A DNA stretch of 64,000 nt from Deltaproteobacteria bacterium (GCA_013151235.1 JAADIO010000022.1:48591-112590), one strand, 5' to 3'; positions 589 to 22,135 are shown, numbered from the stretch's first letter. Program-made: numbers and translations. Notes: generated by a model from the sequence alone, not told the origin.

Positions 589-1293
589 TCACTCCGCAAC
601 GGGATTGTTCGATGCCGCTCCCCGGGCGATAATACGGAACGTGACAACCGGCACCTGAGGAAGGTCCGTACGGATCAGGGCAAGGCCGGAAAAATCCGGT
701 TGTTCGGCCTTGCCGACGAACGCCACCGACACCTTGATCTCACCACCGGCAGGCACGGCAGGATCGTCGACAGAGATCCTGAGGCGGGTATCGAAGGGTT
801 TTACGACCTCAAGATGGATCGGCTTCGCCGAGTGATTCGACAGAGTCACCGACCGGGAGACCACCTTCCCCGGAGGAACCAGGCCGAAGTTACAAATCAG
901 GGGATTCACGGTAACGGGTTCCAGGACATTCCCTTTGATCCGGAGCAGGAATCGCCCGTCCGGCGCGTTGGTCAGGAGGGAAATCCCCTTCGACTGGGGA
1001 CCCCTTTTGTGCCGGGAGTTAAAAACCACGAGAAGTTCGCCGCTCTTCCCCGGGGCGATCTCACGCGGGTAGTCACGGGCAACGGTGCAACCGCAGGTGG
1101 TTTCCACCTTGTAAATCTCCAGCGTCTCGTCCCCCCGATTTTCCAGTTCAAAGCGGTGTACCACCTGGGTCCCCTGGAGAATCGTTCCAAAGTCAAAGAC
1201 CGGCGAAGAGACCGCCACTCGCGGCCCCACGGCCGCTGAAACCGCAGCACAGAGCATCATCATAAGAACAACGGCCAGGATCTTTCGTATCAT
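589..1293 (-). CDS. DUF1573 domain exported protein
   Basis: This 234-residue protein has a Sec signal peptide (MIRKILAVVLMMMLCAAVSA) followed by two beta-sandwich (ASPM/SPD-2-Hydin-like) modules of the DUF1573 type. The first has the typical FDFGTILQGTQVVHRFELENRG start and a TTCGCTV segment; the second starts near NFGLVPPGKVV. The ATG at 1293 follows a GAGAGGG Shine-Dalgarno; the open frame further upstream lacks protein-like sequence. DUF1573 proteins are periplasmic or surface proteins of unknown function. It is the last gene of the minus-strand cytochrome/chaperone cluster, 104 bases after the SUMF1-like gene, which suggests a role with those exported proteins. Confidence 0.85.
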   Translation of the reverse strand: MIRKILAVVLMMMLCAAVSAAVGPRVAVSSPVFDFGTILQGTQVVHRFELENRGDETLEIYKVETTCGCTVARDYPREIAPGKSGELLVVFNSRHKRGPQSKGISLLTNAPDGRFLLRIKGNVLEPVTVNPLICNFGLVPPGKVVSRSVTLSNHSAKPIHLEVVKPFDTRLRISVDDPAVPAGGEIKVSVAFVGKAEQPDFSGLALIRTDLPQVPVVTFRIIARGAASNNPVAE

Positions 1294-1397
1294 GGCGCCG
1301 CCCTCTCTTCCAGGAGGGATTTGCACCGCGTGTGGCTCATGCTTTTGGGCTTGACTTTTGACTTTGTTTCTCTCCGTGGTTAATGCTGTGGTTGCCG

Positions 1398-2225
1398 TTA
1401 CTCCGCGTCCTTTGCACACCGAAAGCCGACGTCGTTGTGGTGATAACCTTCGATGGCAATCGCCTGCCGTCGGGTAATCCGCAACAGCGCGGCATTTGAA
1501 CTCCATGCCCCCCCCCGGATCACGTGGATCCCCTTGCCGTACAGTCTGTTCGACATCTCATTGCCGGGGTACGGGGTATAGACACCCGCTGTCCATTCGG
1601 AGACGTTCCCGGCCATGTTGCGAACCCCGTAGGGCGAACTATCGGTCGCATAGAAGTCCCCGGGAACGGTGCGGGTGTAGATGGGGTTGTGGAAGAGGGT
1701 CGCGGAGTAGCATGCCCAATAGCGGCCCCCGTGGTAGGGCGGCTCATTACCCCACGGATAGCGGCGCCCGTCGGTGCCCCGTGCGGCCTTTTCCCATTCC
1801 GCCTCCGTGGGGAGACGCTTTCCCGCCCACTTCGCATAGGCATCCGCATCCTTCCAGGTCACCTCGACCACCGGCAGTTCGTCCTTGCCCATCACCGGGT
1901 TCTTCAGTTCCACCGGCAGGGTCCGTCCGGTCGCCTCGGCAAATTTGCGGTACTCGCCCACGGTCACCTCATGAGTATCAATATAGTAGGCGGGCAGATC
2001 CACGAGATGAGCGGGCGCCTCATCGTCGTACGAGTCGTCCGCTCCCATCCGGAAGGAGCCGGCGGGGATATAGGTCATTCCCGGGATCACCGCCGGCGGC
2101 TTTGCAGACTGCTGCTCGGCATGCTGCGCCACCTCTTTCGCCGCATGCTGCTCCGGCTTCCCGCTACAGCCGGAACCGAAGGAGATCAAAACAAGAAGGA
2201 GAAAAACCATTCTGTAAGGGGACAT
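1398..2225 (-). CDS. SUMF1/FGE-sulfatase-fold lipoprotein without catalytic cysteines
   Basis: The 275-residue product starts with a lipoprotein signal (lipobox LISFGSGC near residue 20), then a polar linker and a formylglycine-generating-enzyme-like domain. Visible landmarks are GMTYIPAGSFRMG, the EAP..V.L..YYIDTHEVT motif, RLPTEAEWEKAARG, YPWGN, NMAGNVSEWT, VIRGGAWSS and the closing VGFRCA. True FGEs carry a cysteine pair after the RGG motif; here that stretch (WSSNAALLRITRR) has none, so sulfatase activation is unlikely and a binding or structural role is more plausible. The ATG at 2225 has GGAG in front and starts 38 bases after the 7-heme cytochrome stop. Confidence 0.85.
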   Translation of the reverse strand: MSPYRMVFLLLVLISFGSGCSGKPEQHAAKEVAQHAEQQSAKPPAVIPGMTYIPAGSFRMGADDSYDDEAPAHLVDLPAYYIDTHEVTVGEYRKFAEATGRTLPVELKNPVMGKDELPVVEVTWKDADAYAKWAGKRLPTEAEWEKAARGTDGRRYPWGNEPPYHGGRYWACYSATLFHNPIYTRTVPGDFYATDSSPYGVRNMAGNVSEWTAGVYTPYPGNEMSNRLYGKGIHVIRGGAWSSNAALLRITRRQAIAIEGYHHNDVGFRCAKDAE

Positions 2226-2263
2226 AATAAAATCTCCAATTCTTATGGATATCGACCGGCAGA

Positions 2264-4477
2264 TCACCGATCGGCATGAGCCCAGGCAACGGCACGGTCG
2301 TAGTCCTTACCGATCGGCGTGCCGCGATAGTTGATGTTACGAGCGAGCAACGGAACGCCGGCAGGCGTGGTGCGATGGCACGCGCTGCACTCCACGGGTC
2401 CGGTGGAACCATCCGGGTTGTACTGGACCGCCTGCTGCGGCGACACCTCGTCATTGCCCAGGGGATTGACCGGGAAAAGGCCGTGGGCCGCCTGATGGCA
2501 CCCCTGGCAGGTGATCCCGGCATGGGCACTCGAAAAACGCATCAGACTGTATTTCTGTGGTTGATCGACGGGGAAAAAACCACCCCCCATCGATTCCACA
2601 AAGGGCGGAGCGTGACAGTCGGCGCAATGCGGCAGACCCGCTGAAAACCAGTAATCCTTGCTGCCGGAGACATCACCATAAGAGACAGGAACGGCACCGT
2701 CCACTGCCGTTGCCGACACCGTGCCGTCTTTCTTCCGGTACCCGAGCGGTGCCCCTTTGCCCCGCTCCCAGGTAGCTTCGTTCCTGTCCCGCCCCTTCAC
2801 TACCTTCGGGTCCAGGTAGCGGTCGATAAGCTGCTGCACGTCACCGCCGGTGAGTACCGCAGCAATTTCCGGGATCGTTTTATTCCGCAATCCCGCTCCC
2901 GCGCCCGTCGCCGTATCGGTCAGCCGGTCCGCCCGGTAAAGGGCAATGGAAAGTCGGTTGTGACAGTGCGTGCAATAGAGCCCCCGGTCCTTGCCCTCCT
3001 CATCCCAGACGGTATCAAGGTACCATTTCCCGATCGCGTTCAGGTGACTCTTTGTGTGCAGTTCGGCCGCCCGGTACGGGTTTGAGTGGACGTCGCGGCC
3101 GGTGTAACTGCCTGCGGCATCCCGGTTGTCCCCCTTCGCGTACCGGTTGGCGCCATCCCGGGTAACGGGGAAACGATCGAACCGACCCGCATCCGAGTGG
3201 GCCGGGTGGCACATCTGACAGTTCCCGGGCCGCCCCCCGGCGTCCGGAGCGGGCATCACCTCGGCATGTTTTCTGTGTATCGCCTCGGTCAGCGACAACC
3301 GCGCCCGCACCTTCGAGTCGGCAATATTGGTCATGGGGCTGTCGTTCATCCGGAGACGACCGATGACGTTATCCGCGTGGCACGAGGGACAGAAAACCGT
3401 CTGGCGACCCAGGCGGTTGAGGCTCGAGTTGTTGCTGTAGTTCCAGGTAAAATGGGTCTGCTCGTCCTTGTCGTGAAGTTCGAGGATGGAAATGGCCGCC
3501 GCCTGGGTGGTGGAGAAATGCTCGGTAGAATCACTGTAGGTCTTCAGCCAATAGCTGTATTCCGCTCGGTACTTCTTCGCCCGGTCGCCGTTCGCACGCT
3601 TCGTGCCATGGCACCGATCACAGGAGGGAGCATCGACGGGGATTACCCCCATGGCGGTCATGACACTGCCGTCACGATCCATCACGAAACGGCCGGCTTT
3701 GTCCCGCAAGGTGATGATCACCCGCTGATAGGGCTGGTACTCCACCTCCTTGCCCGAACGGAGGCTTTTGTTTCCGCGCGAGTAGTCGAGGTAGGGAGTA
3801 AGCGGTAACCCTACGGCATCCCACAGATCAGGCGGAGCGAGGGGGATCGGGATATCGGTCGTGTCGTTTTCTCCGTCAACGAAAAAGCGTACGCCGCTCT
3901 CGCCGGTATAGTGAAGACTACGATCACGCTTCAGAATCGGCGGCCAATCAGTAATGCGCCGGCCGGTGATCCCATGGTCGTCATCGGGAGGGTGGGTATT
4001 CCAGACGTAAATGCGATCCTTCGCCGTCGCCCCGGCCGGTCGGACGCCATCGGGCCGACCGTAGGTATAATAGGGACGGATGAACTCGACCGGTGGCTGG
4101 TCGAAGGGATCGAGCCGCTCCCCGTTCCGGTCAACATCATACTTGACCCCCCAGTAGGAAAGCTTGTTGCCGGAGGAATAGGAATTTCCCTGAAAACCGA
4201 ACTCGGGCTGCACACCGTCCGTCGGGGTCATCAGTTTCGGCGGCGTCCCGTCCGATCCTTCCGTACGGATTACCTGTACCTGCACGCTGTTAAAGGGAGG
4301 CAGGGCGGCCGTATATTTGAAATCGAAGCTGGTGATGTGCATCCCCAATTCCGAATGGATCAGGATTACATAACGGTGCTGGGGCTCATGGAACTCTTCC
4401 AGGGCAGGTGCCCTAACCGGAAACAACGCAACCATGCCCAGGAACAGCAGGACAATCCTCGTGCAATAAGCGCTCAC
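2264..4477 (-). CDS. Heptaheme c-type cytochrome, exported
   Basis: The 737-residue protein has a signal peptide ending near VRAPA and seven CxxCH heme sites: CDRCH, CPSCH, CQMCH, CTHCH, CADCH, CQGCH and CSACH, spread from about residue 285 to 696. The first 280 residues have no heme and hold a domain with ELGMH.TSFDF.Y...LPPFNS. The same layout occurs in the N-terminal half of the 16-heme protein encoded upstream (for example LGMHCTGFDFSY, LNRLGRQ, HCADCHA.PFVES), so the two are paralogues. A GTG start at 4477 overlaps the ppiC stop as GTGA, and GGAGGT lies inside the ppiC end. It is probably a periplasmic or surface electron carrier; the redox partner is unknown. Confidence 0.92.
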   Translation of the reverse strand: MSAYCTRIVLLFLGMVALFPVRAPALEEFHEPQHRYVILIHSELGMHITSFDFKYTAALPPFNSVQVQVIRTEGSDGTPPKLMTPTDGVQPEFGFQGNSYSSGNKLSYWGVKYDVDRNGERLDPFDQPPVEFIRPYYTYGRPDGVRPAGATAKDRIYVWNTHPPDDDHGITGRRITDWPPILKRDRSLHYTGESGVRFFVDGENDTTDIPIPLAPPDLWDAVGLPLTPYLDYSRGNKSLRSGKEVEYQPYQRVIITLRDKAGRFVMDRDGSVMTAMGVIPVDAPSCDRCHGTKRANGDRAKKYRAEYSYWLKTYSDSTEHFSTTQAAAISILELHDKDEQTHFTWNYSNNSSLNRLGRQTVFCPSCHADNVIGRLRMNDSPMTNIADSKVRARLSLTEAIHRKHAEVMPAPDAGGRPGNCQMCHPAHSDAGRFDRFPVTRDGANRYAKGDNRDAAGSYTGRDVHSNPYRAAELHTKSHLNAIGKWYLDTVWDEEGKDRGLYCTHCHNRLSIALYRADRLTDTATGAGAGLRNKTIPEIAAVLTGGDVQQLIDRYLDPKVVKGRDRNEATWERGKGAPLGYRKKDGTVSATAVDGAVPVSYGDVSGSKDYWFSAGLPHCADCHAPPFVESMGGGFFPVDQPQKYSLMRFSSAHAGITCQGCHQAAHGLFPVNPLGNDEVSPQQAVQYNPDGSTGPVECSACHRTTPAGVPLLARNINYRGTPIGKDYDRAVAWAHADR

Positions 4478-5913
4478 TTTTGACCTCCGGAGGATGCCGG
4501 CGGCAACGCCTTACCCCGTTTTGCCGTCGGCAGGGTCACCCGGCCGAACCAGTCCGGATCGATAACGACCTTGTGCTTTTTGCGCAGCTCCGCCAGATAG
4601 GGTCCCATATTCTTCTTGAAGAAGAATTCATTGTAGTGTTCGCGCTTGTCGCTGTTATTGATCCGTTTCAGGGAAAGCTGCTCCGGTGCGACTCGCTCCA
4701 GGGTGCGAATGAGATGCCACCCGAGCGGCGATTTCACCGGCCGACTGACCTCTTTTACCTTCAAGGCAAAGGCCGCCTTTTCCAACTCGGGAAGGATCTT
4801 CCCCCTCCCTTTTGTGATCCATCCCAAGACCCCCGAAGTCCGCCCGGCGGACGGATCGATGGAGCGCTCCTGGGCGAGCTTGTAGAAAGGATCGTAGTCC
4901 TCGGTAGTCTCCTTGAGGATCTGCTTGCGCAACGCTTTCGCCTCGGCCCTGGTCTTCACCACGATCTGCTGCAGACGCCGCCGTTCGGGAATGGTAAAGT
5001 CCTTCGGATGTTCCTTGTAGTATTCGGCAAAAGCCTTATCCGTGGGGATATACTTTTTACGCAATTTCGTCACGAGCTGCGCTGCGGTGAGGTCGCGCAC
5101 AAAGTCGTCGTGGCGGTGCCGGTAGGTGGGGTCCCGATCGAGGCCGAGGCCGCGTGCCTTGCGTGCCTTGAGAATCTCAACTCCCATGGCAAGAAGTTCG
5201 GCACGCCGTTCCCCCGTACTTTTCTTGTTCTTAAGGCGAGGCCGTGCCCATCGCCAGGTCACCGGCTCGCCTGCAACCGTGGCGATTACCTGCCCCGGCT
5301 GTCGCTTATCGTCATCGTTCAGTGCAATATCGGCATCCTTCACCTCCACCCGGAGCGTCTTTCCCAAACTCTCCGCAAGTTCCTTACGTACCTCGTCGAA
5401 ACGGCGGGCGGCAAGCTTGTTACGCATAACCCGGCGCATCTCGGCATCAAGTTTGTTGGCACCATGTTTGGTGTTCTTCTCCTTCTTCCACGCAGCCTCC
5501 ACCTCTGCATCGGTAATCTTGCTGCGTCGGTTGTAGAAGTCACGGGTATAGAGGTCGGCGAGGGTTTGAATCTCCCACGCCTTCAGGCGGGTACGGAATT
5601 TTTCGCTCTGATCCAGCCCTTCCGACTTTGCCTCAAGATAGAGAAGACGCTGGTTGATGAGATTCGTAAGAAAAGCCTGTTTCACCCGCCGTCCCTGACC
5701 GGAGGAGTTAAGTTGATCCGCGTACGCCTGCAGCGGGGTGGAGTCAATCGCCTGGATCACCTCCCAGTCGTGGATGGCAAGGCCGTCCACGGTGGCGACG
5801 ACGCCGGATTCCCCTGCGGGTTTCCCCTTCGCCGCATCGGCTGCAAGGGTCGTGCCGGCAAGGAGTACCAGAAAGGAGAAAAGAAGAGAAACGACGACCG
5901 AAAGCTTCTTCAT
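4474..5913 (-). CDS. Parvulin-type peptidylprolyl isomerase (SurA/PrsA-like chaperone)
   Basis: The 479-residue protein has a cleavable signal peptide (ends LLAGTTLAADA). It also has a SurA-N-like helical chaperone region (LINQRLLYLEAKSEGLD, residues about 80-110) and a basic central part. A PpiC rotamase domain at about residues 300-410 contains the markers RLQQIVVKTRAEA, FYKLAQERSIDPSAG, GVLGWITKGRG and SPLGWHLIRTLER. It should assist folding of exported proteins in the periplasm. It is translationally coupled (4-base overlap) to the 7-heme cytochrome and lies just downstream of the 16-heme gene, so a dedicated chaperone role for these cytochromes is a fair inference. Confidence 0.9.
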   Translation of the reverse strand: MKKLSVVVSLLFSFLVLLAGTTLAADAAKGKPAGESGVVATVDGLAIHDWEVIQAIDSTPLQAYADQLNSSGQGRRVKQAFLTNLINQRLLYLEAKSEGLDQSEKFRTRLKAWEIQTLADLYTRDFYNRRSKITDAEVEAAWKKEKNTKHGANKLDAEMRRVMRNKLAARRFDEVRKELAESLGKTLRVEVKDADIALNDDDKRQPGQVIATVAGEPVTWRWARPRLKNKKSTGERRAELLAMGVEILKARKARGLGLDRDPTYRHRHDDFVRDLTAAQLVTKLRKKYIPTDKAFAEYYKEHPKDFTIPERRRLQQIVVKTRAEAKALRKQILKETTEDYDPFYKLAQERSIDPSAGRTSGVLGWITKGRGKILPELEKAAFALKVKEVSRPVKSPLGWHLIRTLERVAPEQLSLKRINNSDKREHYNEFFFKKNMGPYLAELRKKHKVVIDPDWFGRVTLPTAKRGKALPPASSGGQK

Positions 5914-5950
5914 AAATAACCTCCAACATCCGCTTTAATGAGTGTTTCGC

Positions 5951-5979
5951 AAAGTACCCGAAAAACCGTATACTGTCAA
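5951..5979 (-). promoter_or_regulatory. Candidate sigma-70 promoter of the ppiC/7-heme operon
   Basis: On the minus strand, TTGACA (5979-5974) is followed by a 17-base spacer and TACTTT (5956-5951), 38 bases before the ppiC ATG. The -35 is perfect and the -10 matches 4 of 6. Confidence 0.5.
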
Positions 5980-6243
5980 GGGGTTAAGACCCGCATTTTT
6001 CGAACCTGCAAATCCCCCCTACCCCCCCTTTCCGGCGCCTCCCCCTTTTTAAAGGGGGACTGAGGGGGATTCCGCGCTTGTCTTTGATTTTCCTTGCGCC
6101 CTTGGCGTCCTTTGCGAGAAGGCGCTTTCCGCTTTTAGCCTTTGACCGGGGCGGTTTGTAAACCGCCCCCTACATCGATTTGTTTTTCTTTGCGGCCTCT
6201 GCGTCTCTGCGGTGAGATCACCTCTTGATGGTTTCATAATAGA
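5980..6243. other. Gene-free stretch with low-complexity and dispersed-repeat-like sequence
   Basis: No convincing gene. It holds runs of C and of AAAGGGGG, and a segment reading like the 'cctctgcgtctctgcggtg' type of dispersed intergenic repeat. Related phrases occur near 1370, 34540 and 60030. It separates the 16-heme gene terminator from the ppiC promoter. Confidence 0.5.
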
Positions 6244-6276
6244 CCAAAGGGGGTGGACCGTAAGGCCCACCCCCTT
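6244..6276 (-). terminator. Strong hairpin downstream of the 16-heme cytochrome gene
   Basis: On the minus strand the arms AAAGGGGGTGG and CCACCCCCTTT enclose a short GC-rich loop, about 40 bases after the 16-heme stop codon. There is only a three-T tail, so it may act as a terminator or as a 3' stabilising structure. Confidence 0.6.
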
Positions 6277-6315
6277 TGTGCTGTGGCGGATTGGGACCCG
6301 CCGGGTTCATAATGT

Positions 6316-9300
6316 TTACGGGTTCGACAAGGCACCCACATGGCAATAACCGCACGAGTTTGTCATCCCCGCAGGCGTGGTATCTCCCGCAGGATCGGGG
6401 TCACCGTTTGCAGCCAGATCGGTCCTCATGGCATCTACGAACTCCGTGGTCACCACGTCGAAGGTATGGGAGTGGATATCCCCCTCACGGTACTGGTTCG
6501 AACCATCCGTGAGGGAGTTCTCCCACCGCGCCGTTTTGGCCGTCTTCGGCATATGGCAGTTGGTGCATCGCCCCATACCGCTACCCACCGGATCATAGGT
6601 CATGTAACTCATAGTACTGTTCACCCACTTCCCTATGTGACGCATCACCTCGGAGGCGATCGTGGCCTCATCGGTCGGGGTCGTGGTCCCGGCGGCAAGA
6701 TCATCCGCCATCGACTGGGTAACAAACTGGAAGTTCGCAGGATCGGCGCCTTCCAGGCTTTCGTCCGGAGTCGTTTCACCCGCACCCGGTGCTCTGAGGG
6801 AACTGTTGTGACAACCCAGGCAGAGAGCGTTGTTATCACCGTTGGCAGTGAGCTGATGCTCTTCGACCACACCGGCGGCACTGGGACCGCCATGAGCGTC
6901 ATGACAGTCGATACAGGTCACCATCTCCATGTCGTTCTTGTACATCGTCGTACGCACCACGTCGTAGTACTGCTGGTGGTGGCCCTTCGAATGGTTGAAG
7001 GAACCGGTCACCTGCGTTACATTCCCCGCCGCAGTAGAAGTCACGAAGGGGTTGGCCGACTCATAACCGATATCCTGCCAGCTATGGTGATCGGTGGTAT
7101 AGTCGATCGCCTCCCAGTATCCGCCGACGGTCCCGAAGTCGGGAGCCAGGCCGGTGCCGTCTGCGGTGCCGTAGTACTCGGCGGGACTCATCCCCGGCTT
7201 GAAGACCGTAATCGCCGGATCGACAGTGAGATCTCCCACGGAAGCGAAGCCCGCATGAGCGCCGCTTGAATCAAGGACGCTGTGACCGTGACCGCGCTGG
7301 TGACAGGTGCCGCAAACCATCGTCAGACGTCCCGGAGTCAGAAGATCCGGCTGGACGATATTGTAGCCCTCGCCGCCGTTTGCCACATGTTCGGAACCCG
7401 GACCGTGACAGCGCTCGCAGCCGATGTTGCCGGCGTAGACGTTGGACGCGACCTGGTCAATGTACTGGGTGATGAAATTGCCGTTGCTATCCTTGGTAAT
7501 GCCGACACCGCCGTGGCAGCCGGCGCAGTCAACACCAAAGGACTCGGTGGGTGCACCCGTAGGCGTCGTACCAAGGCCTGCGGGTGTAAAAACGTCGGCA
7601 CCCATGGTGGTCGGTGTGGACCACTTACCGGAGAACTCACCGTTCTCCCCGAAGGCAGCGGGGTCGGATCCGGACTCGTTCCACTGGAACGGAGCCGGAT
7701 AATAATAGGAGGAACCGCCGGCCTGCACGTGCGCCGTTCCCGGCTCTCCATTGGCGCCGACAAGAAGCATGTAGCGCTGCTTGGCAACTCCCTCACCGCC
7801 ATAGGTGAAAGCAACGTTGTACGTAGCCGAAAGGTTCCCGCTGCATGTGGCGTTATCCGCCATCTGCATTGTGGGCGTACCCCCCGAGTAACCCAGCTTG
7901 GCGTAATGGGTGTTGCCCTGGGCGGAGAAGCTAATGCAGTCGCCATTGGCGAATGCCGCCAAGCCACCATCAGCGTTGGCTGCCCAACTCGTCATATCCT
8001 GCAGACTGTTGGCCATCGTATAGCCGGGGTTGGACGGATCCGGAACGCGGAATCCGAGGAAGTGAAGGGTGTGCTTCAGCGAACCCTTCGCATGGCACCC
8101 AAGACAGGTAGACGAACCGACGTAGGTCGCCGAGGTGGACGGTGTCATCGAAATCGTGATGTCACCGAAGGCCGGCATGTTGACTACGTGGCCGTTGACC
8201 ACCTTGAGAGTTTCACGCCGAGCCCACGGCAGGTGTGCCGTATCGCTCCCCGCAGGGATGACGCAGGCATAGTAATCACCGTCGGCCAGCGGCACACCAT
8301 TAAAATTGTAGCTGCCATCAGCTGCGGTGGTCGCAAAACCGCCGTTGGAATTGGACCCGCCGATCACTGCGTTGGCGACATCCTCAATCGGCTGAATGGA
8401 ACTGCTCGCCTCCACATCGGCAGCAGAAACAAAGACCACGGAGGCATTGGCAACCTTCGCCGTGGAGGTATCAACGACCGTACCGTGAAGTGCAAGACCG
8501 GTCATATTATTGTGATTGGCGCAATCGTCGTTGGCCGGGGCTTCCGGAATCATCGTGCGCCCGTAGCCGAGCGGCAGGCCCAACCCGTTGTCGGTTGCGT
8601 TTCGTTCGACCGTCGGCAGGGTACTCCTCGCGTCCCGCACGGTATGCATGTAGATCACCGCCAGGTCATAGTTGGTGCCGATCGTTACGCCGTTCACCTT
8701 CTTCTTCGCCGCGACTGTCGGTACACCGCCGTTGTTGGTCACGTGACATGCGCCACAGGTAACGGGACCGTGCGAACCGTTGGCATTATACTGGAGCGCA
8801 GCGTTGCGGGTCGTCGGATCGTTCAGCGGCGACACCGGGTAGAGCCCGTGGGTCGACTCGTGACACGACTGACAGGCGATCCTCTCGTGACCCTTGGAGT
8901 GGCGCATGAGGGCGTACTTGCCGGGCTCGGCCCAGGGCGGATTCATCCCCTGGGACTCGACAAATGGATACGCGTGACAGTCGGCGCAGTGCGGCTCACC
9001 CGCAGAGGCCCAGAAGTCACTCCCGTCGGTCACCACACCGTAGGGGACACCGGGGACAACTTCGCCGCCCATCCCCTTGTACTGGTAGTGGTCATTGGTA
9101 TCATCAATCACCGTCTCACCGCCGAGTTCGGAGGCAATATCCACTGCTTCCTGCTCGGTCAGCGGCGTATCGACACCGCCGAACATCAGGCCTTCGGCCG
9201 CAGCGTTCTGCGTGGCAACCAGGAGGTCTTCAGCCGATTCGCCGGCAATCGCAGGTCCCAGTCCACCGATACCGCCGGCACCGTGGCAGAGATCGCATTC

Positions 9301-11304
9301 CTTGTCCTCGTAGACGTTGGTGCCGCCTGTCGGAGTGACGGTCCGCAGTTTCGGGTCCATGTACTTGGAGGTCAGGTCCGACACGGAGACACCCAGTGCG
9401 GCGGCAATCGACGGAATCCCCGAATCACGCAGGGTTGAGGTCGCGGGACGCGCCGTCGAACCCGGAATGGTGGGATCGCCGATCCCGGTGTCCGTTTTCC
9501 ACAGTTCGGAGGCGAGCCGGTTGTGACAGTTCGTGCAGTAGATTCCCTTGCCGGTGCCCGCATCGACGTTATCCAGGTACCATTGGCCGATGGCGTTCAG
9601 GTGGCTGGGCGTATCGTCCGGCTCGTTGTTACGGTCCATGTTGCCATGAACGTCCCGATTGGTGAAACAGCCCACGGAGTCACGGATGTCCGTCTGGGCG
9701 ACGGAGGTCAGCGTCCCCTGGTAGCTGAGCGGGAAGTTGGTCATGTCGCCGTTCTGGGTATGGGCCGGATGGCAGGCCTGGCAGTTGCCGGCGCGGCCGT
9801 TGTTATCCGGCAGCGTACGCTCAACAGCGCCGGAATGACGCATATGGATGGCATAGGTCAGCGCCTGGTTGCCGACATTGTCCCGGCTGGCAGGGTAACG
9901 CTCCGCCTCGGAGGCTGCCGGCACGGACGGAGACTGGTTGTCGCAGAAGCGGTCACCGGCCTGGAAACGGCCTACGATGTTATCTGCGTGACATGACTGA
10001 CACATCACTGATTGCCGACCGAGACGGTTGTTCCCGACACCACTCGGGTCGTAGTTGCCAAGGAAGTTGGTGCCGAAATCGGAATCGTGGATACCGAGCA
10101 TCCCCACCGCCGCCGACTTCAGCCGGGCATAATATCCCGTGGCCCCCTGGGCGAGCCAGTAATTATACTCCTGCAAGGCGTGACCACCCGGATCACCCGC
10201 GGGAATGGTTCCGCTGGCGGGATCATAGCCATGACACTTTTCACATGCCGGGGAGTCGATTGGGGCGGTGCCGAAAAACTGCACCGGTGTTCCATCGTGC
10301 TGCAGCATCTGGTTGCCGGTGGAAGCGTTGTACATGTAGACCCACTGCTCCTGAAAGGGCCTGAAATCGCTCTCGGCGATGTCGGTAATGTTTTTGCCCA
10401 CCACCAGGGAGTCGTTGAACGGGGTCAGCGCAATGCCGACAACATCCCAAACATCGGCGGTCGTCAGAACCACGGGCACATCGGAGAGACGCATGCCATC
10501 GAGGCCGAGACCGGCGCCCGCGGCATCAATGATCTTGGTATAGGTATAAACGACCGTCCCCTCATTGCCCACATAGGTGAGGCCTGGACGGCCGAGACCT
10601 AAGCCGTTAAGTGCATCGGCCGACTTGTCCGCAAGCTTGTTGGCCATCGCCCCGAAGGTGGGGCCGTGGTCCTGGGGAATATTGAGGGAGGCACCACCGA
10701 CAGAGATACGATCGGTCGCCAGGGCACCCGCCGCCTTGCCGCCTTCGAGGAAGGGGAGAACGGGCGGATCACCCGGACCGGCACCGCCGGAAACGCCGAT
10801 GCCGGAGCCGGCATCCTTCCCGGTAAAGGGATTGTAAGTATAGAGAGAGTCGAACTCAACATTCGACAACATGTCCTCAGGGTCGGTGGTGGTCCCGTTG
10901 ACGTTCGAGTCGGGACTACCGTCGGCCCATTTCTCGGTGCCGTTCCCGGCATCATAGGGGACTGTCCAGTAGGCCAGCTTTGCTCCCTCCGAGAAGGAAT
11001 TGTCCTTGAACTCATAGCCGAGCTTAATGTTGTCGGCGGGTGTGAGTTGCTTCGGGTGTGCACCGGTTTTCACCGCCTGCGCCTGGATCGAGTTGAAGGG
11101 CGGCAGGACGCAGCAATAGGAAAAATCAAAACCGGTACAGTGCATCCCCAACTCATAGTTGGTAAAAATGAGATAGTTCTTCTTGGGTGAGTTGAGATGG
11201 CGGCCCCGGCTGCGCCTGCCGCGGGCAACGGCATTCGTCGCCAGCGAGGCGACAAAAAGTACGCCCAGGACCAGCATCAGAATCTGAATGGCTGTCTTAC
11301 GCAT
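6316..11304 (-). CDS. Giant 16-heme c-type cytochrome with carboxypeptidase-regulatory-like insert
   Basis: The product is about 1,662 residues with an N-terminal signal (MRKTAIQILMLVLGVLFVAS, then ATNAVARG) and sixteen CxxCH sites. Residues 1-350 form the same heme-free domain as in the 7-heme paralogue (ELGMHCTGFDFSYCCVLPPFNS). Hemes 1-8 (CEKCH at about 353 to CGACH at about 849) follow the paralogue's pattern. Residues about 905-1055 resemble a carboxypeptidase-regulatory beta-sandwich (ALHGTVVD, ADGSYNFNGVPLADGDYY). Hemes 9-16 (CLGCH near 1065 to CGYCH near 1650) form a second, octaheme section. The ATG at 11304 has AAAGGAG six bases upstream; an ATG at 11328, also with GGAGG, would add eight residues and overlap the PEP-CTERM gene. 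Probably a surface or periplasmic electron conduit. Confidence 0.92.
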   Translation of the reverse strand: MRKTAIQILMLVLGVLFVASLATNAVARGRRSRGRHLNSPKKNYLIFTNYELGMHCTGFDFSYCCVLPPFNSIQAQAVKTGAHPKQLTPADNIKLGYEFKDNSFSEGAKLAYWTVPYDAGNGTEKWADGSPDSNVNGTTTDPEDMLSNVEFDSLYTYNPFTGKDAGSGIGVSGGAGPGDPPVLPFLEGGKAAGALATDRISVGGASLNIPQDHGPTFGAMANKLADKSADALNGLGLGRPGLTYVGNEGTVVYTYTKIIDAAGAGLGLDGMRLSDVPVVLTTADVWDVVGIALTPFNDSLVVGKNITDIAESDFRPFQEQWVYMYNASTGNQMLQHDGTPVQFFGTAPIDSPACEKCHGYDPASGTIPAGDPGGHALQEYNYWLAQGATGYYARLKSAAVGMLGIHDSDFGTNFLGNYDPSGVGNNRLGRQSVMCQSCHADNIVGRFQAGDRFCDNQSPSVPAASEAERYPASRDNVGNQALTYAIHMRHSGAVERTLPDNNGRAGNCQACHPAHTQNGDMTNFPLSYQGTLTSVAQTDIRDSVGCFTNRDVHGNMDRNNEPDDTPSHLNAIGQWYLDNVDAGTGKGIYCTNCHNRLASELWKTDTGIGDPTIPGSTARPATSTLRDSGIPSIAAALGVSVSDLTSKYMDPKLRTVTPTGGTNVYEDKECDLCHGAGGIGGLGPAIAGESAEDLLVATQNAAAEGLMFGGVDTPLTEQEAVDIASELGGETVIDDTNDHYQYKGMGGEVVPGVPYGVVTDGSDFWASAGEPHCADCHAYPFVESQGMNPPWAEPGKYALMRHSKGHERIACQSCHESTHGLYPVSPLNDPTTRNAALQYNANGSHGPVTCGACHVTNNGGVPTVAAKKKVNGVTIGTNYDLAVIYMHTVRDARSTLPTVERNATDNGLGLPLGYGRTMIPEAPANDDCANHNNMTGLALHGTVVDTSTAKVANASVVFVSAADVEASSSIQPIEDVANAVIGGSNSNGGFATTAADGSYNFNGVPLADGDYYACVIPAGSDTAHLPWARRETLKVVNGHVVNMPAFGDITISMTPSTSATYVGSSTCLGCHAKGSLKHTLHFLGFRVPDPSNPGYTMANSLQDMTSWAANADGGLAAFANGDCISFSAQGNTHYAKLGYSGGTPTMQMADNATCSGNLSATYNVAFTYGGEGVAKQRYMLLVGANGEPGTAHVQAGGSSYYYPAPFQWNESGSDPAAFGENGEFSGKWSTPTTMGADVFTPAGLGTTPTGAPTESFGVDCAGCHGGVGITKDSNGNFITQYIDQVASNVYAGNIGCERCHGPGSEHVANGGEGYNIVQPDLLTPGRLTMVCGTCHQRGHGHSVLDSSGAHAGFASVGDLTVDPAITVFKPGMSPAEYYGTADGTGLAPDFGTVGGYWEAIDYTTDHHSWQDIGYESANPFVTSTAAGNVTQVTGSFNHSKGHHQQYYDVVRTTMYKNDMEMVTCIDCHDAHGGPSAAGVVEEHQLTANGDNNALCLGCHNSSLRAPGAGETTPDESLEGADPANFQFVTQSMADDLAAGTTTPTDEATIASEVMRHIGKWVNSTMSYMTYDPVGSGMGRCTNCHMPKTAKTARWENSLTDGSNQYREGDIHSHTFDVVTTEFVDAMRTDLAANGDPDPAGDTTPAGMTNSCGYCHVGALSNP

Positions 11305-11320
11305 GGAAGCTCCTTTCATT

Positions 11321-12253
11321 TTACACATGGTGCCCTCCTTTCCCACCTGCACGACGACGAAGCCCCAACAGGCCGAAAAGCCCGGTCGCCAGGAAGACGA
11401 GGGACGAAGGCTCGGGAACCATTGCCGTGGTGGTAAGGGCGTTAAGATTGTCGCTCGACAACAGACCCAGGTCCGCGGCCGTGATGGCGACATTCGAGGT
11501 GTTGTTCAGAAAAAGGTCCGCGGCCGATCCGTAGCCGGAGGCGGAAGCCAGCGAAAACAGAACATCTCCCGTAACAGCATCAATGGCCAGCGCGTCTAAG
11601 TCCTGTCCCTGCTCAATACCAAGCGACGCGGCAGTCCGGAAGATGTTACCAAGACTGTTGAGATAGATGTTCCCATCACCGGCAAGGGAGAAGTAGACAT
11701 CCCCGTCCTGACCCGGAACATAAGGTGCGGCACCGAGATCCACGGCATCGAGATCATCATTGTTCTGTCCGTAAGCGCTATCGTTCAGACCGTAGTCCTC
11801 ACCATAAGTATCCGCAAAGTTGACCCCCGCAAGCTGGCCCGGGTTGGCGTCGAAAAGCGTCCCCATCTGCCGACTGGTCGAGGCCTTCCATGCCACGTCC
11901 GTGCCCGAAGCGCCCTGGCTGTTCGCATCCACCGAGAAATAGACGTCGTAGATGCTTGCGGGATCAGCACTGTCAAACCCGAAGGAGAGGGCGTCGATCT
12001 CGTCGGCCGCGGACAATCCGAGATCGGCCGGCGTCAACGCCACGGTGTTGGTGCCGTCGAGCGGCGTATCGAAGAGATGGGCGCCGTCCGGACTGGTGCT
12101 GTATACGTCATTAGGCATATTCGTTCCGGGAGCAACGCCGATCCCGTCATTGAGCACCGAGAAGGTGTCGGCCCGGCCGATCGCCGGAAGAGCGAAGATA
12201 CAAATCATTGAGACAACCGCCAGAAGGCGGAGCCTTAACCCATAACATTTCAT
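11321..12253 (-). CDS. PEP-CTERM sorted surface protein with internal repeats
   Basis: This 310-residue exported protein has a signal peptide ending LPAIGRA. It closes with a PEP-CTERM exosortase signal: VPEPSS, a hydrophobic helix (LVFLATGLFGLLGL) and the basic tail RRRAGGKGG. The body shows a loose repeat of the form LGL....DLDAL....GDVYFSL: PADLGLSAADEIDAL, SLGIEQGQDLDAL and AADLGLLSSDNLNAL align by eye. Exosortase is expected to cleave it at the inner membrane; none is encoded in this window. It ends 16 bases before the 16-heme cytochrome start, so the two are very likely on one transcript. The ATG at 12253 follows GGGGGAAACATT. Confidence 0.88.
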   Translation of the reverse strand: MKCYGLRLRLLAVVSMICIFALPAIGRADTFSVLNDGIGVAPGTNMPNDVYSTSPDGAHLFDTPLDGTNTVALTPADLGLSAADEIDALSFGFDSADPASIYDVYFSVDANSQGASGTDVAWKASTSRQMGTLFDANPGQLAGVNFADTYGEDYGLNDSAYGQNNDDLDAVDLGAAPYVPGQDGDVYFSLAGDGNIYLNSLGNIFRTAASLGIEQGQDLDALAIDAVTGDVLFSLASASGYGSAADLFLNNTSNVAITAADLGLLSSDNLNALTTTAMVPEPSSLVFLATGLFGLLGLRRRAGGKGGHHV

Positions 12254-12350
12254 AATGTTTCCCCCTTGTATGATGTCATTCCCCTGCAATAATCCCGCCG
12301 GGAGCGAATGCCTCCGGCTTCCCCCTTTCCGGCAGGCAGCAGATTTGTGA
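12254..12350 (-). promoter_or_regulatory. Conserved GC-rich 5' leader element, copy 1
   Basis: Reading toward the ATG it shows CTGCCTGCCGG, AAAGGGGG, a hairpin (GCCGGAG / CTCCCGGC), then AGGGGAATGACATCAT and a GGGGG ribosome-binding stretch. Copies 2 (13363-13466) and 3 (14831-14950) share the order: CTG(C/T)C-rich block, AAAGGGG, GC hairpin, GGGGAA and a purine-rich SD. I do not recognise it as a known riboswitch. Confidence 0.45.
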
Positions 12351-12540
12351 ACCTGCCGGAAACATAACGTAAAATTGAACCATTGTAAAAGTACGATTTA
12401 TGTTGGAACCATTTTGTCGGTCATTCTTCACCCCCCTCATATTTAGATGATCACGATATTTGACTTCAACTTCCGCAGCAAATCTTATGAATCACCCCCT
12501 TTCCCGATATAAGATCATTTTGCCCATTTGCCGTAAGCCG

Positions 12541-13362
12541 TCACACCCCGCGACGACGAAAGAAGACCGCAAGTCCTGCCAGACCGCTTCCCAACAGCAC
12601 CAGCGAGCCGGGCTCGGGAACCGTCGCAAGCTGGAGTTCAAGAACCATCTGGTAAGAGAGAGTATCGAACCCACTTCCCGGCATCCGATTGCCCGTGGCG
12701 ACAAGACGCAGGCTCTGACCGTCAAAGGGACGGCCGTCCACCTTGTAGGCGAAGTTGTAACTGCCATTGGTCGGAGAGGTCCACGGGGCGGTCCAGAGAC
12801 GTAAGGGCATACTGTTATCCAGACCGGTGTTCTGCGGGATGAAGACGGCGTTATTCATCACCACGTGCATCTCGCCGTCACCGGTCACCGTGCCGCCCGG
12901 CTCGAAGAAACTATTCCACGGAATGGTATACTGGTTGGCGTCGCCGGTCTCAGTGGAGTGGTCGCGGAAGTCGACCGTCCCAAGCAGTGTTCCCGGGACC
13001 GTATCCGGCAGGAAGGTGTCCGCAGGAATCGTCACCGTCGTACCCCCTCCGCTGATTACAATATCCATCGTGCCGCCCGGAATCGCCCATTCCAGGGAAT
13101 GCTGGAAGTTAAAGCTACTCCCCGTGTCTCCACCGTTATATGGATCACTTGCGATTCCATCCACACTCCCCGGAACGATGTTGAAGTGGTAGGTACCGTC
13201 GGTCCAGGCGACCGGCGTGGCATGGGCAGGGACAACCGCCAAGATGAAGAATAGCCCGAAGACAACGGCGACCGCCGCTGTTTTTAAGTGTTGAATGATG
13301 ATGGTGTGCCGCCACACCGGAACCTCCGCCGACAGGCGGAGTTTCCCCTTGCAAAGATTCAT
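12541..13362 (-). CDS. PEP-CTERM sorted surface protein
   Basis: This 273-residue exported protein has an N-terminal hydrophobic signal (AAVAVVFGLFFILAVVPAHA), a beta-rich body and the C-terminal sorting signal VPEPGSLVLLGSGLAGLAVF followed by FRRRGV. No catalytic domain is recognised in the body; it is rich in Gly, Thr, Asp and Asn, as usual for adhesin-like PEP-CTERM proteins. The ATG at 13362 lies 6-8 bases after a GGGGGG stretch. A -24/-12 promoter and an upstream block matching those of the third PEP-CTERM gene lie in its 5' region. No terminator is visible before the next PEP-CTERM gene, so read-through into that gene and the 16-heme cytochrome is possible. Confidence 0.86.
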   Translation of the reverse strand: MNLCKGKLRLSAEVPVWRHTIIIQHLKTAAVAVVFGLFFILAVVPAHATPVAWTDGTYHFNIVPGSVDGIASDPYNGGDTGSSFNFQHSLEWAIPGGTMDIVISGGGTTVTIPADTFLPDTVPGTLLGTVDFRDHSTETGDANQYTIPWNSFFEPGGTVTGDGEMHVVMNNAVFIPQNTGLDNSMPLRLWTAPWTSPTNGSYNFAYKVDGRPFDGQSLRLVATGNRMPGSGFDTLSYQMVLELQLATVPEPGSLVLLGSGLAGLAVFFRRRGV

Positions 13363-13466
13363 AAACTTCCCCCCTATGATGTCATTCCCCTATAAAACGG
13401 TCTTGAACAATCGCGCCCGAGGCATCCGCCCCCGGCCCCCCTTTTTCTGCGGACAGGAATTTGCAA
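13363..13466 (-). promoter_or_regulatory. Conserved GC-rich 5' leader element, copy 2
   Basis: Toward the ATG: AAATTCCTGTCCGC, AAAAAGGGG, a hairpin with arms CCGGGGGC and GCCTCGG, then AGGGGAATGACATCAT and GGGGGG. The AGGGGAATGACATCAT block is identical to that of copy 1 at the same position relative to the start. Confidence 0.45.
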
Positions 13467-13658
13467 CCCTTTCAGATGACAATCATCAACGGCTCCCAAT
13501 TCCCGTCATTAGATCGACTGGGTACCTCCTTTCTTCAATACGAACTAAAACGTCTCCATTTTCATGTTCCTCAGGCTGCAGCACGAATCACTCCCCCCCG
13601 GTTTGATACTGCACGCCACGATCGGCCGGAACTTTATGCGGCCATATACAGCAGCATA

Positions 13659-13676
13659 TTGCAGGTTACATGCCAA
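13659..13676 (-). promoter_or_regulatory. Sigma-54 (-24/-12) promoter for PEP-CTERM gene
   Basis: Minus-strand TTGGCAT-GTAA-CCTGCAA fits the sigma-54 form TGGCAN6TGC: GG and GC are correctly spaced. It lies about 300 bases upstream of the ATG at 13362. The third PEP-CTERM gene has a near twin at 15041-15059. Confidence 0.72.
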
Positions 13677-13773
13677 TTCTACCCAATGAGCGGCCAGAAC
13701 AAATAAAAAGATAACATGATGAAAAGAAGGGACTTATTTCGGAGCAAGACAGCCCGTCAACCGGTTATGCAGG

Positions 13774-13832
13774 TATTCGATAGCGTGAATATATGAAATA
13801 ATTTTCCTTTTTTGTGAAAAGATTTTCCCACT
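13774..13832 (-). promoter_or_regulatory. Duplicated upstream activator-like block, copy A
   Basis: It begins TATTCGA and contains GAATATATGAAAT, TTTTCC, TTTTGTGAAAA and TTTTCC-CACT in that order. It matches 15161-15218 nearly base for base. It starts about 97 bases beyond the sigma-54 motif, a normal position for an enhancer-binding protein site. Confidence 0.65.
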
Positions 13833-13883
13833 ATTTGTGCGGATGCACGATTGTGCGGGCTCCACAACGGATGCAGACAAAAC

Positions 13884-13915
13884 AAAGGGGGCCGGCCCGA
13901 AGGCCCGCCCCCTGA
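13884..13915 (-). terminator. Intrinsic terminator of third PEP-CTERM gene
   Basis: On the minus strand a GC stem (GGGGGCGGGCC / GGCCGGCCCCC) with a TTCG loop is followed by TTTGTTTTG, 37 bases after the stop codon. It shows this gene is a separate transcription unit. Confidence 0.8.
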
Positions 13916-13951
13916 TTCTCTCAGATCCTCAATACGCAAGCGACCGGAGCA

Positions 13952-14830
13952 TTATGCACCGGCGGCCTTTACGGAACGATGATGACGCCGGTGGAGACCG
14001 GCGAGAACCGGCAGGAAGGATGCGATCAGGAAAAAAGAGGAGGGCTCGGGTACGGCAGCGGCGCTGACCCGGATATTGTCCACGATCAGGCCGGTGTCGA
14101 AGCTCCCGTCCCCCTCATCTCCGACAAAAAATTCCAGGGTGTAGTCGCCGGCGCCCAGGATAGAACTGGTGACCGTCTGGAACCCGCCGAGATAGGTCCC
14201 GTCGTAAAAGCTGCTCGCCGGAAGTGTGGGATCGCTGGTCGTCCAGGAAATGCCGCTGAAGTCACCGGCGTATAGCGGTGCAAAGGAACCATCGTTGTAG
14301 CCGTCGTCCAAGGAGCACTGAACCAGGGAGATCGGAGCGCCCGCGGCAGGCAGGAGGCGGATCTCGGCGATATCGGCAAGGCCGGCGGTACTCCATCCAT
14401 CGAACTCACTGGTAGCAATAGTCCAGTCGAGAGCCAGAGTGGAGGGGGCCGTAAGCGTAAAAGACTGGCTCAAAGTGGCGATGTCGAACTCGTCGGCGCC
14501 GCTTCCGTCCCGGTCAAACCCCGAATCCACACCCGGCGGCATCCCGTTCACAAAGCTGTCGGGACTGGTCGATAGGAGCGCAAACCAACTGCCGTCGGTT
14601 GCCAAATAGCCGGTCTGACCACTAATATTTTTATCCGGGCTATGGTAGTCGGGGTTGATCCGCTGGACGTTGCCGGAAGCGGTCCAGCCGGACAGGTCGG
14701 TTTCAAAAGAAAGGTTGGTGAGCCCCGTAGCGAAGGCCGCCGCCGGGACGAACAGACAGAAAACTGCGATCACCGCCATCCAGCGGAGTACGACATTCCG
14801 AATCTTTAGTTTTATACTGTATAACTTCAT
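13952..14830 (-). CDS. PEP-CTERM sorted surface protein
   Basis: This 292-residue exported protein has a signal region (WMAVIAVFCLFVPAAAFA). The body begins with GLTNLSFETDLSGWTASGN, a jelly-roll/carbohydrate-binding-like opening common in PEP-CTERM proteins, and continues with LDWTIATSEFD and LEFFVGDEGDGSFDTGLIVDNI. The C terminus is VPEPSSFFLIASFLPVLAGL with a basic HRRHHR tail, the exosortase recognition signal. It is flanked by its own sigma-54 promoter and a strong terminator. The ATG at 14830 follows AAAAGGGAAAAC. Probably a matrix or surface protein; the ligand is unknown. Confidence 0.86.
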   Translation of the reverse strand: MKLYSIKLKIRNVVLRWMAVIAVFCLFVPAAAFATGLTNLSFETDLSGWTASGNVQRINPDYHSPDKNISGQTGYLATDGSWFALLSTSPDSFVNGMPPGVDSGFDRDGSGADEFDIATLSQSFTLTAPSTLALDWTIATSEFDGWSTAGLADIAEIRLLPAAGAPISLVQCSLDDGYNDGSFAPLYAGDFSGISWTTSDPTLPASSFYDGTYLGGFQTVTSSILGAGDYTLEFFVGDEGDGSFDTGLIVDNIRVSAAAVPEPSSFFLIASFLPVLAGLHRRHHRSVKAAGA

Positions 14831-20175: not shown

Positions 20176-21219
20176 ATGATCTATAAAGTGATCACCAAGA
20201 GTGAATTCAGGAAGTTTGTGTCCGGACTGATCCGCGAGAACCAGACGATCGGACCCAAGCTTGTGGATTCCGACAGAGAGGGCAACCCCATCTATCAATT
20301 CAAAGAAGTTAATTCCTTTGACGAGATGGACCTGGATTACACACAGGCCGACTACTCGATCAAAAATTTTTATCTCCCCTTCCGGGAAGAGCTTTCCCGG
20401 TTCGATTATTCCAACAGCGACTGGGAGCAGAACATCGAATACCACGTGCATCCCAGGGTGATCGTCGGGGTGCGGGCCTGTGACATTAACGCCCTGACCA
20501 AGCTCGACAAGATATTCATGAAGGGGAACTTCCCGTCCCCCCATTATATTGCCCGCAGGAAGAACACCTTTTTAATCGGCATGGACCATGAACCTCTGGA
20601 CGACTGTTTCTGTAAATCGCTGAACCAGGATGTGGTGCGGCACGGTTTTAATCTCTACTGCACGGACATCGGAAAAAGCTATTATCTGACAATCAACTCC
20701 TCCAAGGCCTTCAACTTTCTGCGGAATGTAAAGACCTCGGATCCCGGGAAGGAAGACGACAGGAAATATATTGAACGGCGGAAGTATTTGAAGAAAAAAT
20801 TTCGCACCCATGTAGAGGTGACCGGGCTTCCCGCCCTCATGGACATCGAGTTTCAATCGGACGTCTGGAAAAAATGGGGGGACAAGTGCTTGAATTGCGG
20901 TTCCTGTGCCATGGTCTGTCCCACCTGTTACTGCCACGGCGTTGAGGAAAACATTGAGGTAAATCTGAAACGATCACGCAAGGAAAGAGTGCAGTACTCC
21001 TGCAGTATCGTGGATTTTGCCGAAGTCGCGGGAGGGCACAATTTCAGGCCCCTGAAAGAGGATCGTCTCAAGTACAGGTTTTATCATCACTACAGAGGGT
21101 TTGCCGAGAACGCAGACGAGCAGATTTGTGTGGGCTGTAACCGGTGCGGCCGTGCCTGTCTGGCCGGCATCAACCCCAGGGATGTCATCAACGACCTGAG
21201 AATGGAGAGCGAAGAATGA
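20176..21219 (+). CDS. hydB: Hydrogenase/sulfhydrogenase beta subunit, 2[4Fe-4S]
   Basis: This 347-residue iron-sulfur subunit of a cytoplasmic group 3b-like [NiFe] hydrogenase relays electrons between the flavin subunit and the hydrogenase core. The central [11 protein letters not shown]...D..F segment is typical of the HydB/DsrK-like family. Two C-terminal cluster motifs are visible: [16 protein letters not shown] (about residue 235) and [17 protein letters not shown] (about residue 315). The start follows GGAGACTTTCC. The stop overlaps the next ATG. The order beta-gamma-delta-alpha equals hydBGDA of Pyrococcus. Confidence 0.9.
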
Positions 21220-22124
21220 GCTACAAAATCAAGAAGGAAGATATCAATCTTGAACCCTTTATGACCCAACCGCCCCAGTACAATCTCAAAACCGTTGTCA
21301 TGAAAACGGACAAGGTTTATAAATGCGAGATCATTAACATGATCGAGCTAACGCCCATGGAAAAACTTTTTCATCTCAGGATTCTCGATCCTGCCGAACG
21401 TGACCTCTTCTCTTTCAGGGCCGGCCAGTTTGTCATGGTCGAGGTCCCCGGCTTCGGCGAGGTCCCGATCTCCCTCTCGAGTTCTCCAAACAACCGGGAG
21501 TTCATGGAACTCTGTATACGAAAAGCGGGGCAGACCACCAACATGCTCCATAAAGCACGGATCGGATCCAGGGTCGGCATTCGCGGTCCTTTCGGCACGG
21601 CATTCCCCATGGAACAGATGGTCGGGCACAATCTTCTTTTGATCGCAGGCGGACTCGGTCTCGCCCCTCTCCGGGCTCCGATCTATTGGGTCACGGACCA
21701 CCGTTCCGATTACCGGGATGTTCATATCCTTTACGGAACCAAGGAGCCCTGGCAGATGCTTTTCACCTATCAGTATGAAGAGTGGGAACGGATTAATCAT
21801 ATCCGGATGCTGACGATCGTGGAAAAGGGGGATGAGAACTGGAAAGGCAACACGGGAATGATCACCGAACTTTTCAACGACATCACCATTGACCCTGCAA
21901 ACACCTATGCCATTGTCTGCGGTCCACCGGTCATGTTTAAGTTCGTCTGCAACCACATGGACAACCTGGGCATCCCCATGAATCACATGTTTGTCTCCCT
22001 GGAACGGAGAATGCACTGCGGTATGGGAAAATGCTGTCGCTGCATGGTGGGGTCCACCTTTACCTGTGTGGACGGGCCGGTTTTTGATTACTGGTCCGTC
22101 ATGAATTTAAAAGAAGCCATTTAA
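21216..22124 (+). CDS. hydG: Hydrogenase gamma subunit, FAD/NAD(P)-binding
   Basis: This 302-residue ferredoxin-NADP-reductase-fold subunit is the site of NAD(P) reduction or oxidation. It has a FAD-binding stretch ([23 protein letters not shown]), a nucleotide-binding [24 protein letters not shown], and a C-terminal 2Fe-2S loop ([12 protein letters not shown]...[10 protein letters not shown]). It is coupled to hydB by a 4-base overlap. A 30-residue N-terminal extension precedes the flavin domain. The hydG symbol is used in the Pyrococcus sulfhydrogenase sense and not for the [FeFe]-maturase of the same name. Confidence 0.9.
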
Positions 22125-22135
22125 GGAGGCCGGTC

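Follow-up and report, generated by a model that had tools for sequence, protein, structure and literature searches.

The window, a 64,000-nucleotide (nt) stretch of DNA from a genome labelled Deltaproteobacteria bacterium (GCA_013151235.1, JAADIO010000022.1:48591-112590), most likely derives from a member of the candidate phylum CG2-30-70-394 and carries a locus for large exported multiheme cytochromes. The locus encodes a 16-heme protein, a parvulin-type peptidyl-prolyl isomerase, and a 7-heme protein, followed by a lipoprotein of the SUMF1 fold and a DUF1573 protein. Both cytochromes belong to a family that we refer to as LGMH, from a motif in its heme-free N-terminal domain. Coordinates refer to the whole stretch, and all locus genes named here lie on the minus strand.

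6316-11493 (open reading frame [ORF]), minus strand: 16-heme fusion cytochrome; 16 CXXCH motifs; likely start at M56 (11328) or M64 (11304)
6319-8484, minus strand: octaheme module of the fusion, residues 1004-1725
6245-6278, minus strand: terminator-like hairpin of 15 pairs just past the 16-heme fusion gene (consensus match only)
4474-5913, minus strand: parvulin-type peptidyl-prolyl isomerase, exported; Rotamase families, E 4e-16 to 4e-20
2264-4477, minus strand: 7-heme cytochrome of the LGMH family; 7 CXXCH motifs; Sec signal peptide
1398-2267, minus strand: SUMF1/FGE-fold lipoprotein; likely start 2225; PF03781, 8e-57; lipobox SFGSGC
589-1506, minus strand: DUF1573 exported protein; likely start 1293; PF07610, 7e-30

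The original prediction had described five consecutive minus-strand genes with exported-looking products and no beta-barrel porin among them, and both statements are borne out. Start 11328 of the 16-heme gene is preceded by a ribosome-binding site (AAAGGAGG); the 7-heme gene begins with GTG, has CGGAGG ahead of its start, and overlaps the isomerase gene by 4 nt. Because the 16-heme and isomerase genes are set apart by 402 nt and the terminator-like hairpin, the locus probably comprises two or more transcription units. The gap 3' of the fusion gene showed no unusual RNA folding (z -1.06).

Distribution of the LGMH family and its isomerase

Genome contigs were searched with an alignment of the 7-heme protein, which yielded 186 encoding stretches, and 80 loci were kept. 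The carriers include methanotrophs, Sedimenticola, and Thiotrichaceae within the Gammaproteobacteria, as well as Gallionellaceae, Nitrospinota, Nitrospirota, Aquificota, Methylacidiphilum, and Saprospiraceae. Nearly all members are approximately 750-860 amino acids (aa) long with seven CXXCH motifs, and the motif ELGMH...F...Y....PP.NS is invariant in the family, its form in the N-terminal domain being ELGMHC..F..YCC.LPPYNS. No NCBIfam model matched the 7-heme protein; the LGMH family is widespread and has no name in the protein-family libraries searched.

We defined an LGMH pair as a cytochrome with an E/Q-LGMH domain together with an adjacent parvulin gene. As in the window, the two genes are immediate neighbours in 56 of 66 testable loci from several phyla: a script placed the isomerase gene downstream in 48 and upstream in 3, and 5 more, with overlapping open frames, were read from printed coordinates. 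Ten loci have no isomerase, and 14 of the 80 were too short to judge. Genes for a 9-heme cytochrome, the isomerase, and a 7-heme cytochrome stand together as a triad in three lineages, namely the window genome's own family (G004), the Methylothermaceae (G024), and the family of Methylobacter marinus (G120). This adjacency supports the earlier claim that the exported cytochromes have a dedicated folding factor, and comparison of the loci indicates that the conserved unit consists of two genes, for an LGMH multiheme cytochrome and a predicted parvulin isomerase. The further claim, that the five families form one set, fell to the co-occurrence test that had been named with it: relatives of the SUMF1-fold and DUF1573 proteins were found near none of the 80 loci, so the five-gene set is rejected as a unit, and these two genes appear to be lineage-specific neighbours. 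The SUMF1-fold lipoprotein resembles SUMF1/FGE and GldK-type proteins in its PF03781 fold and, like them, is a lipoprotein, but it scores far below the GldK and EgtB cut-offs. It reads GGAWSSNAALLRITRR where FGE has a Cys-containing motif, and it lacks the catalytic Cys pair, which lies near the C-terminus of FGE.

An isomerase gene beside a large cytochrome is a trait already known from the Oet cluster, the core of which encodes a beta-propeller protein, 16-heme and 26-heme cytochromes, and an isomerase (PMC5539420; named in PMC10553843), and from the Uet cluster, with the undecaheme UetJ, the tetraheme UetA, NHL proteins, the isomerase UetB, and the porin UetC (PMC10734462). A 16-heme protein and an isomerase are common to Oet and the window, the 16-heme proteins being compared by description, whereas the 26-heme and propeller proteins were not found among the five window genes; with Uet the isomerase alone is shared, and NHL proteins, an 11-heme protein, and a tetraheme protein were not found among the window genes. 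Since these filament-type clusters also pair isomerase with cytochrome (PMC5539420; PMC10734462), the LGMH proteins might be subunits of cytochrome filaments (nanowires), that is, large extracellular cytochromes that polymerise. We consider this improbable: the Oet and Uet cytochromes are of other families as far as they have been described, and the lipid anchor seen in many members of the LGMH family points to attachment to a membrane. By pattern search, a lipobox is present in about a third of the homologues, nearly always with no Asp at position +2, which suits the outer membrane.

The seven hemes are matched by nine invariant histidines outside the heme motifs, enough for bis-His ligation of every heme, which suits electron transfer over catalysis. 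The broad presence of the family in oxidisers of nitrogen, sulphur, and methane would also fit a catalytic multiheme enzyme, such as a reductase of nitrogen or sulphur compounds, that lies incidentally in energy-metabolism loci. With invariant histidines outnumbering hemes, and six-coordination thus possible for all of them, and with no match to an enzyme family, we find such an enzyme hard to credit.

Several features of individual members may be recorded here. The window 7-heme protein and its orthologue in the sister genome G018 read LGMHITSFDFKYTAALPPFNS at the GMHC..FSYCC site; both have lost all three Cys of this site, each of which is kept in 96-98% of 53 sequences. A third paralogue in the window genome (G000:C61:5221-8582, locus L220), with 810 aa and 7 hemes, lies directly beside a gene for a DUF3034 beta-barrel-like protein (PF11231, 1e-48), and groups with sequences from Aquificota, Methylacidiphilum, Nitrospirota, and Smithellaceae; the DUF3034 barrel was not found beside its relatives. 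The sister genomes G018 and G023 have an expanded LGMH family (L214, L215, and L216), with several paralogues of 750-1250 aa, some of which carry collagen-like or repeated Asp/Cys-rich linkers ahead of the LGMH domain. In L088, L103, L096, and other methanotroph loci, the genes for the LGMH cytochrome and the isomerase follow immediately after those for oxidase subunits II and I and for a diheme cytochrome that resembles PdsA.

The 16-heme protein and porin-cytochrome conduits

The heme-free LGMH domain occupies residues 103-416 or so of the 16-heme protein and is followed by eight LGMH-family hemes (417-917), a carboxypeptidase-regulatory-like stretch (approximately 1004-1110), and an octaheme module (1130-1718). 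Over 713 columns, the N-terminal part (approximately 100-975) shares 40.5% identity with the 7-heme protein; seven hemes are in register, an extra, eighth one lies at residue 733, and eight more follow. Earlier, the protein had been described as the 7-heme architecture extended by a regulatory-like domain and eight hemes. The shared heme-free domain in that description stands; its heme count does not, the N-terminal part having eight hemes instead of seven. Recent tandem duplication of the two cytochromes is ruled out by their long, separate branches in a tree, which carries a long-branch warning, the pairing of the window cytochromes within it being unsure. Residues 100-975, approximately, are best described, from the alignment, as an old paralogue of the 7-heme protein.

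The C-terminal part has a different source. From residue 1004 onward the protein aligns over 756 columns, at 57% identity, with an octaheme ORF of G023, which is a stand-alone lipoprotein gene with its own signal sequence and lipobox (LVAGTLTGC); in G018, too, the module is a separate lipoprotein gene. In both genomes the octaheme lipoprotein gene is followed by a beta-barrel-like gene, identified as such by a reading of its sequence without a family match, and then by the gene for a 13-heme cytochrome. To judge from this order and these sequences, the set is composed like a porin-cytochrome conduit, so that the octaheme module of the fusion is homologous to a putative external subunit neighbouring barrel and periplasmic multiheme genes. 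The 16-heme protein thus appears to be an LGMH-family cytochrome joined to the external octaheme subunit of a conduit, a relationship that the original prediction had missed.

We counted eight genomes of the phylum, taking G304 and G305 to be the same genomes as G018 and G023, because their matches lie at the same contigs and coordinates (C26 and C22 for G018; C51, 3333-5399 versus 3333-5405, for G023). The fusion was found only in the window genome, one of these eight, and this genome (99% complete) has no separate octaheme gene. Such a restricted occurrence could point to an artefact of assembly or annotation. We think an artefact very improbable, however, as the protein is encoded in a single unbroken frame of 1725 codons, and the joint lacks the signal peptide and lipobox that the stand-alone octaheme protein has, as expected of a genuine fusion.

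A related conduit, likewise overlooked before, is predicted on contig C1 of the window genome (G000:C1:17001-34893; locus L232, 8475-12957 minus and 1994-8390 plus), where genes for a barrel, a 5-heme protein, and a 17-heme protein make up a porin-cytochrome locus. The barrel (465 aa, with no match to a Pfam or NCBIfam family) resembles the one that accompanies the separate octaheme protein (32% identity, E 3e-22), the 5-heme protein is 40% identical to part of the 13-heme protein, and the 17-heme protein is a lipoprotein of 886 aa. The adjoining operon encodes 5-heme, molybdopterin, iron-sulphur, and NrfD proteins; the molybdopterin protein is QrcB-like (7e-94), but lies below the curated cut-off. 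Both the G023/G018 set and the C1 set share the external/porin/periplasmic plan of the Mtr, Pcc, Ext, and PCC3 conduits. Measured against the Mtr and Pcc plan, the window locus differs in having no porin, in its heme numbers, and in the fusion of the external subunit to another cytochrome.

The window proteins resemble MtrC and OmcA in having a heme region matched by PF22113 (MtrC/MtrF heme domains II/IV), the match being above the cut-off only in the fusion; a putative beta domain lies ahead of the hemes. MtrC and OmcA, however, have ten hemes against the seven, eight, or nine of LGMH proteins, which match no OmcA/MtrC model of NCBIfam. Searches of solved structures by sequence gave one weak match (E 0.016), and Foldseek gave no significant match for models of the whole 7-heme protein (predicted local distance difference test [pLDDT] 74, predicted template modelling score [pTM] 0.81) or of the heme-free domain (pLDDT 71, pTM 0.73). 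Both models are of moderate confidence and were built without hemes, so they say little. The heme-free domain aligned weakly with MtrC domain I (9eov; Z 4.7, rmsd 3.3, 92 residues), a match tied with antibodies, and its model suggests an Ig-like sandwich at most.

Candidate roles in electron transfer

The nearest characterised relatives that we found are the c553O cytochromes of Methylococcus capsulatus (MCA0338, MCA0421, MCA0423, MCA0424, MCA2160, and MCA2259). These were represented in our comparisons by a cluster at 418-450 kb in the Methylococcus-like genome G239, with ORFs of 1160 aa and 8 hemes, of 9 hemes, and of 923 aa and 7 hemes, sizes that match those of the c553O cluster. Direct profile comparison of the LGMH and c553O families gave E 1.5e-8 (probability 95.5); by way of an 8-heme family with the motif NDLGMHC, the values were E 3e-34 (LGMH versus 8-heme) and E 3e-91 (8-heme versus c553O). 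Like the LGMH proteins, c553O cytochromes are large, exported, multiheme, and clustered, and the two are homologous over the N-terminal domain (GM..., PYN...AQV) and the first heme region. They differ in having 8-9 hemes and approximately 1090-1420 aa in the Methylococcus-like genome, in which they have no LGMH motif and no isomerase was recognised beside them. The c553O subunit described by Bergmann in 1999 is reportedly of about 124 kDa with about 8 hemes, and the window cytochromes, one of 737 aa with 7 hemes and the other with 16 hemes, fall outside that heme number and size. Identity of the 7-heme protein with ORF3 of the c553O cluster is ruled out, as the Methylococcus-like 7-heme proteins have no LGMH domain. 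On present sequence comparisons, LGMH is best regarded as a family related to c553O, remotely and in a superfamily sense only, and not as c553O itself.

In M. capsulatus, c553O-type cytochromes are located on the cell surface (PMC4831470), and loss or deletion of MCA0421 lowered anode current without abolishing it (PMC6281684). Given these relatives, we favour, by a modest preference, the reading that the cytochromes of the window locus transfer electrons at the outer surface and have a periplasmic isomerase dedicated to their folding, the fusion being tied to the external subunit of a conduit. Surface or respiratory electron transfer with a dedicated folding factor had been proposed before, and the link to the surface is strengthened by the equivalence of the octaheme part to the external conduit subunit in the sister genomes and by the homology to c553O. 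According to this proposal, the parvulin would act in the periplasm, folding the large cytochromes while their hemes are attached, after which the 7-heme protein and the 16-heme fusion would reach the outer surface. There the octaheme half of the fusion would dock at the outer-membrane exit of the conduit, and its LGMH half would extend the heme chain outwards, giving a 16-heme relay within a single covalent chain. Its partner conduit would be the C1 locus with barrel, 5-heme, and 17-heme genes, fed by the neighbouring Qrc-like menaquinone complex, and flow could be either discharge to minerals or partners, or uptake.

Several observations weigh against this reading. No porin gene lies among the genes of the window locus, and the C1 barrel shares only 32% identity with the one accompanying the stand-alone octaheme lipoprotein. 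The homology of the LGMH family proper to c553O is remote. The signal peptide of the window 7-heme protein is an ordinary one with no lipobox, and the group of the C61 paralogue and Aquificota sequences has no isomerase neighbour. Moreover, methanotroph members adjoin genes for a diheme cytochrome c and for subunits I and II of a heme-copper oxidase, and Gallionellaceae members lie beside a NapC/NirT tetraheme gene and a diheme cytochrome, contexts that a periplasmic role fits equally well. In such a role, LGMH cytochromes would pass electrons between NapC/NirT-type quinol dehydrogenases of the inner membrane, or diheme cytochromes, and a terminal oxidase or reductase with no exposure at the surface, and the plain Sec signals of many members agree with it. 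We nevertheless judge a purely periplasmic relay unlikely, if a serious competitor, in view of the predicted lipoproteins that make up about a third of the family, nearly all lacking Asp at +2, the fusion to the external octaheme subunit, and the homology to surface-located c553O cytochromes. The literature passages found on Gallionellaceae cytochromes describe no such pair of 7-heme protein and isomerase.

More generally, and as a tentative suggestion, the LGMH cytochrome-parvulin pair may be an undescribed cross-phylum module of extracellular electron transfer in methanotrophs, iron and sulphur oxidisers, and Nitrospinota, with the fusion displaying its direct coupling to the external subunit of a conduit. 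The family occurs commonly among bacteria driving the methane, iron, sulphur, and nitrite cycles, some of them methanotrophs that can be cultured, and the fusion suggests which conduit component an LGMH cytochrome works with. If electrons do pass to or from the outside by this route, the module could help explain the activity of methanotrophs without oxygen, and the pair would offer gene targets for deletion in laboratory strains.

Upstream genes and genome context

The genes upstream of the 16-heme gene, which the original prediction had left out, are part of the locus.

11321-12289, minus strand: PEP-CTERM protein, upstream neighbour of the 16-heme gene
12541-13362, minus strand: PEP-CTERM protein with a relative known in the sister genome G018

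The first ends 16 nt before start 11304 of the fusion gene, or overlaps start 11328, and is probably co-transcribed with it. In G018, a relative of the second (58% identity over 110 aa) immediately precedes the isomerase and 7-heme genes, the products of which are 74% and 76% identical, respectively, to those of the window. Exosortase is the enzyme that processes PEP-CTERM proteins, and the window genome encodes one (G000, C32:24265-25020; E 7e-71). The PEP-CTERM proteins may help to retain the cytochromes in an extracellular matrix. Three PEP-CTERM genes form a minus-strand row at 11321-14830 of the window.

Oxidative Dsr sulphur metabolism has been suggested for CG2-30-70-394 (PMC10591310). 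The window genome has two dsrA-type matches (G000:C19:30506-32817 and G000:C16:29657-31934), each with a dsrB-like neighbour, and a double dsrA recurs in most of the phylum's eight genomes. It also has two heme-copper oxidase-type genes and one short further match. Within the window, positions 20176-24228 read as genes for apparent iron-sulphur and flavin/iron-sulphur proteins and the small and large subunits of a NiFe hydrogenase.

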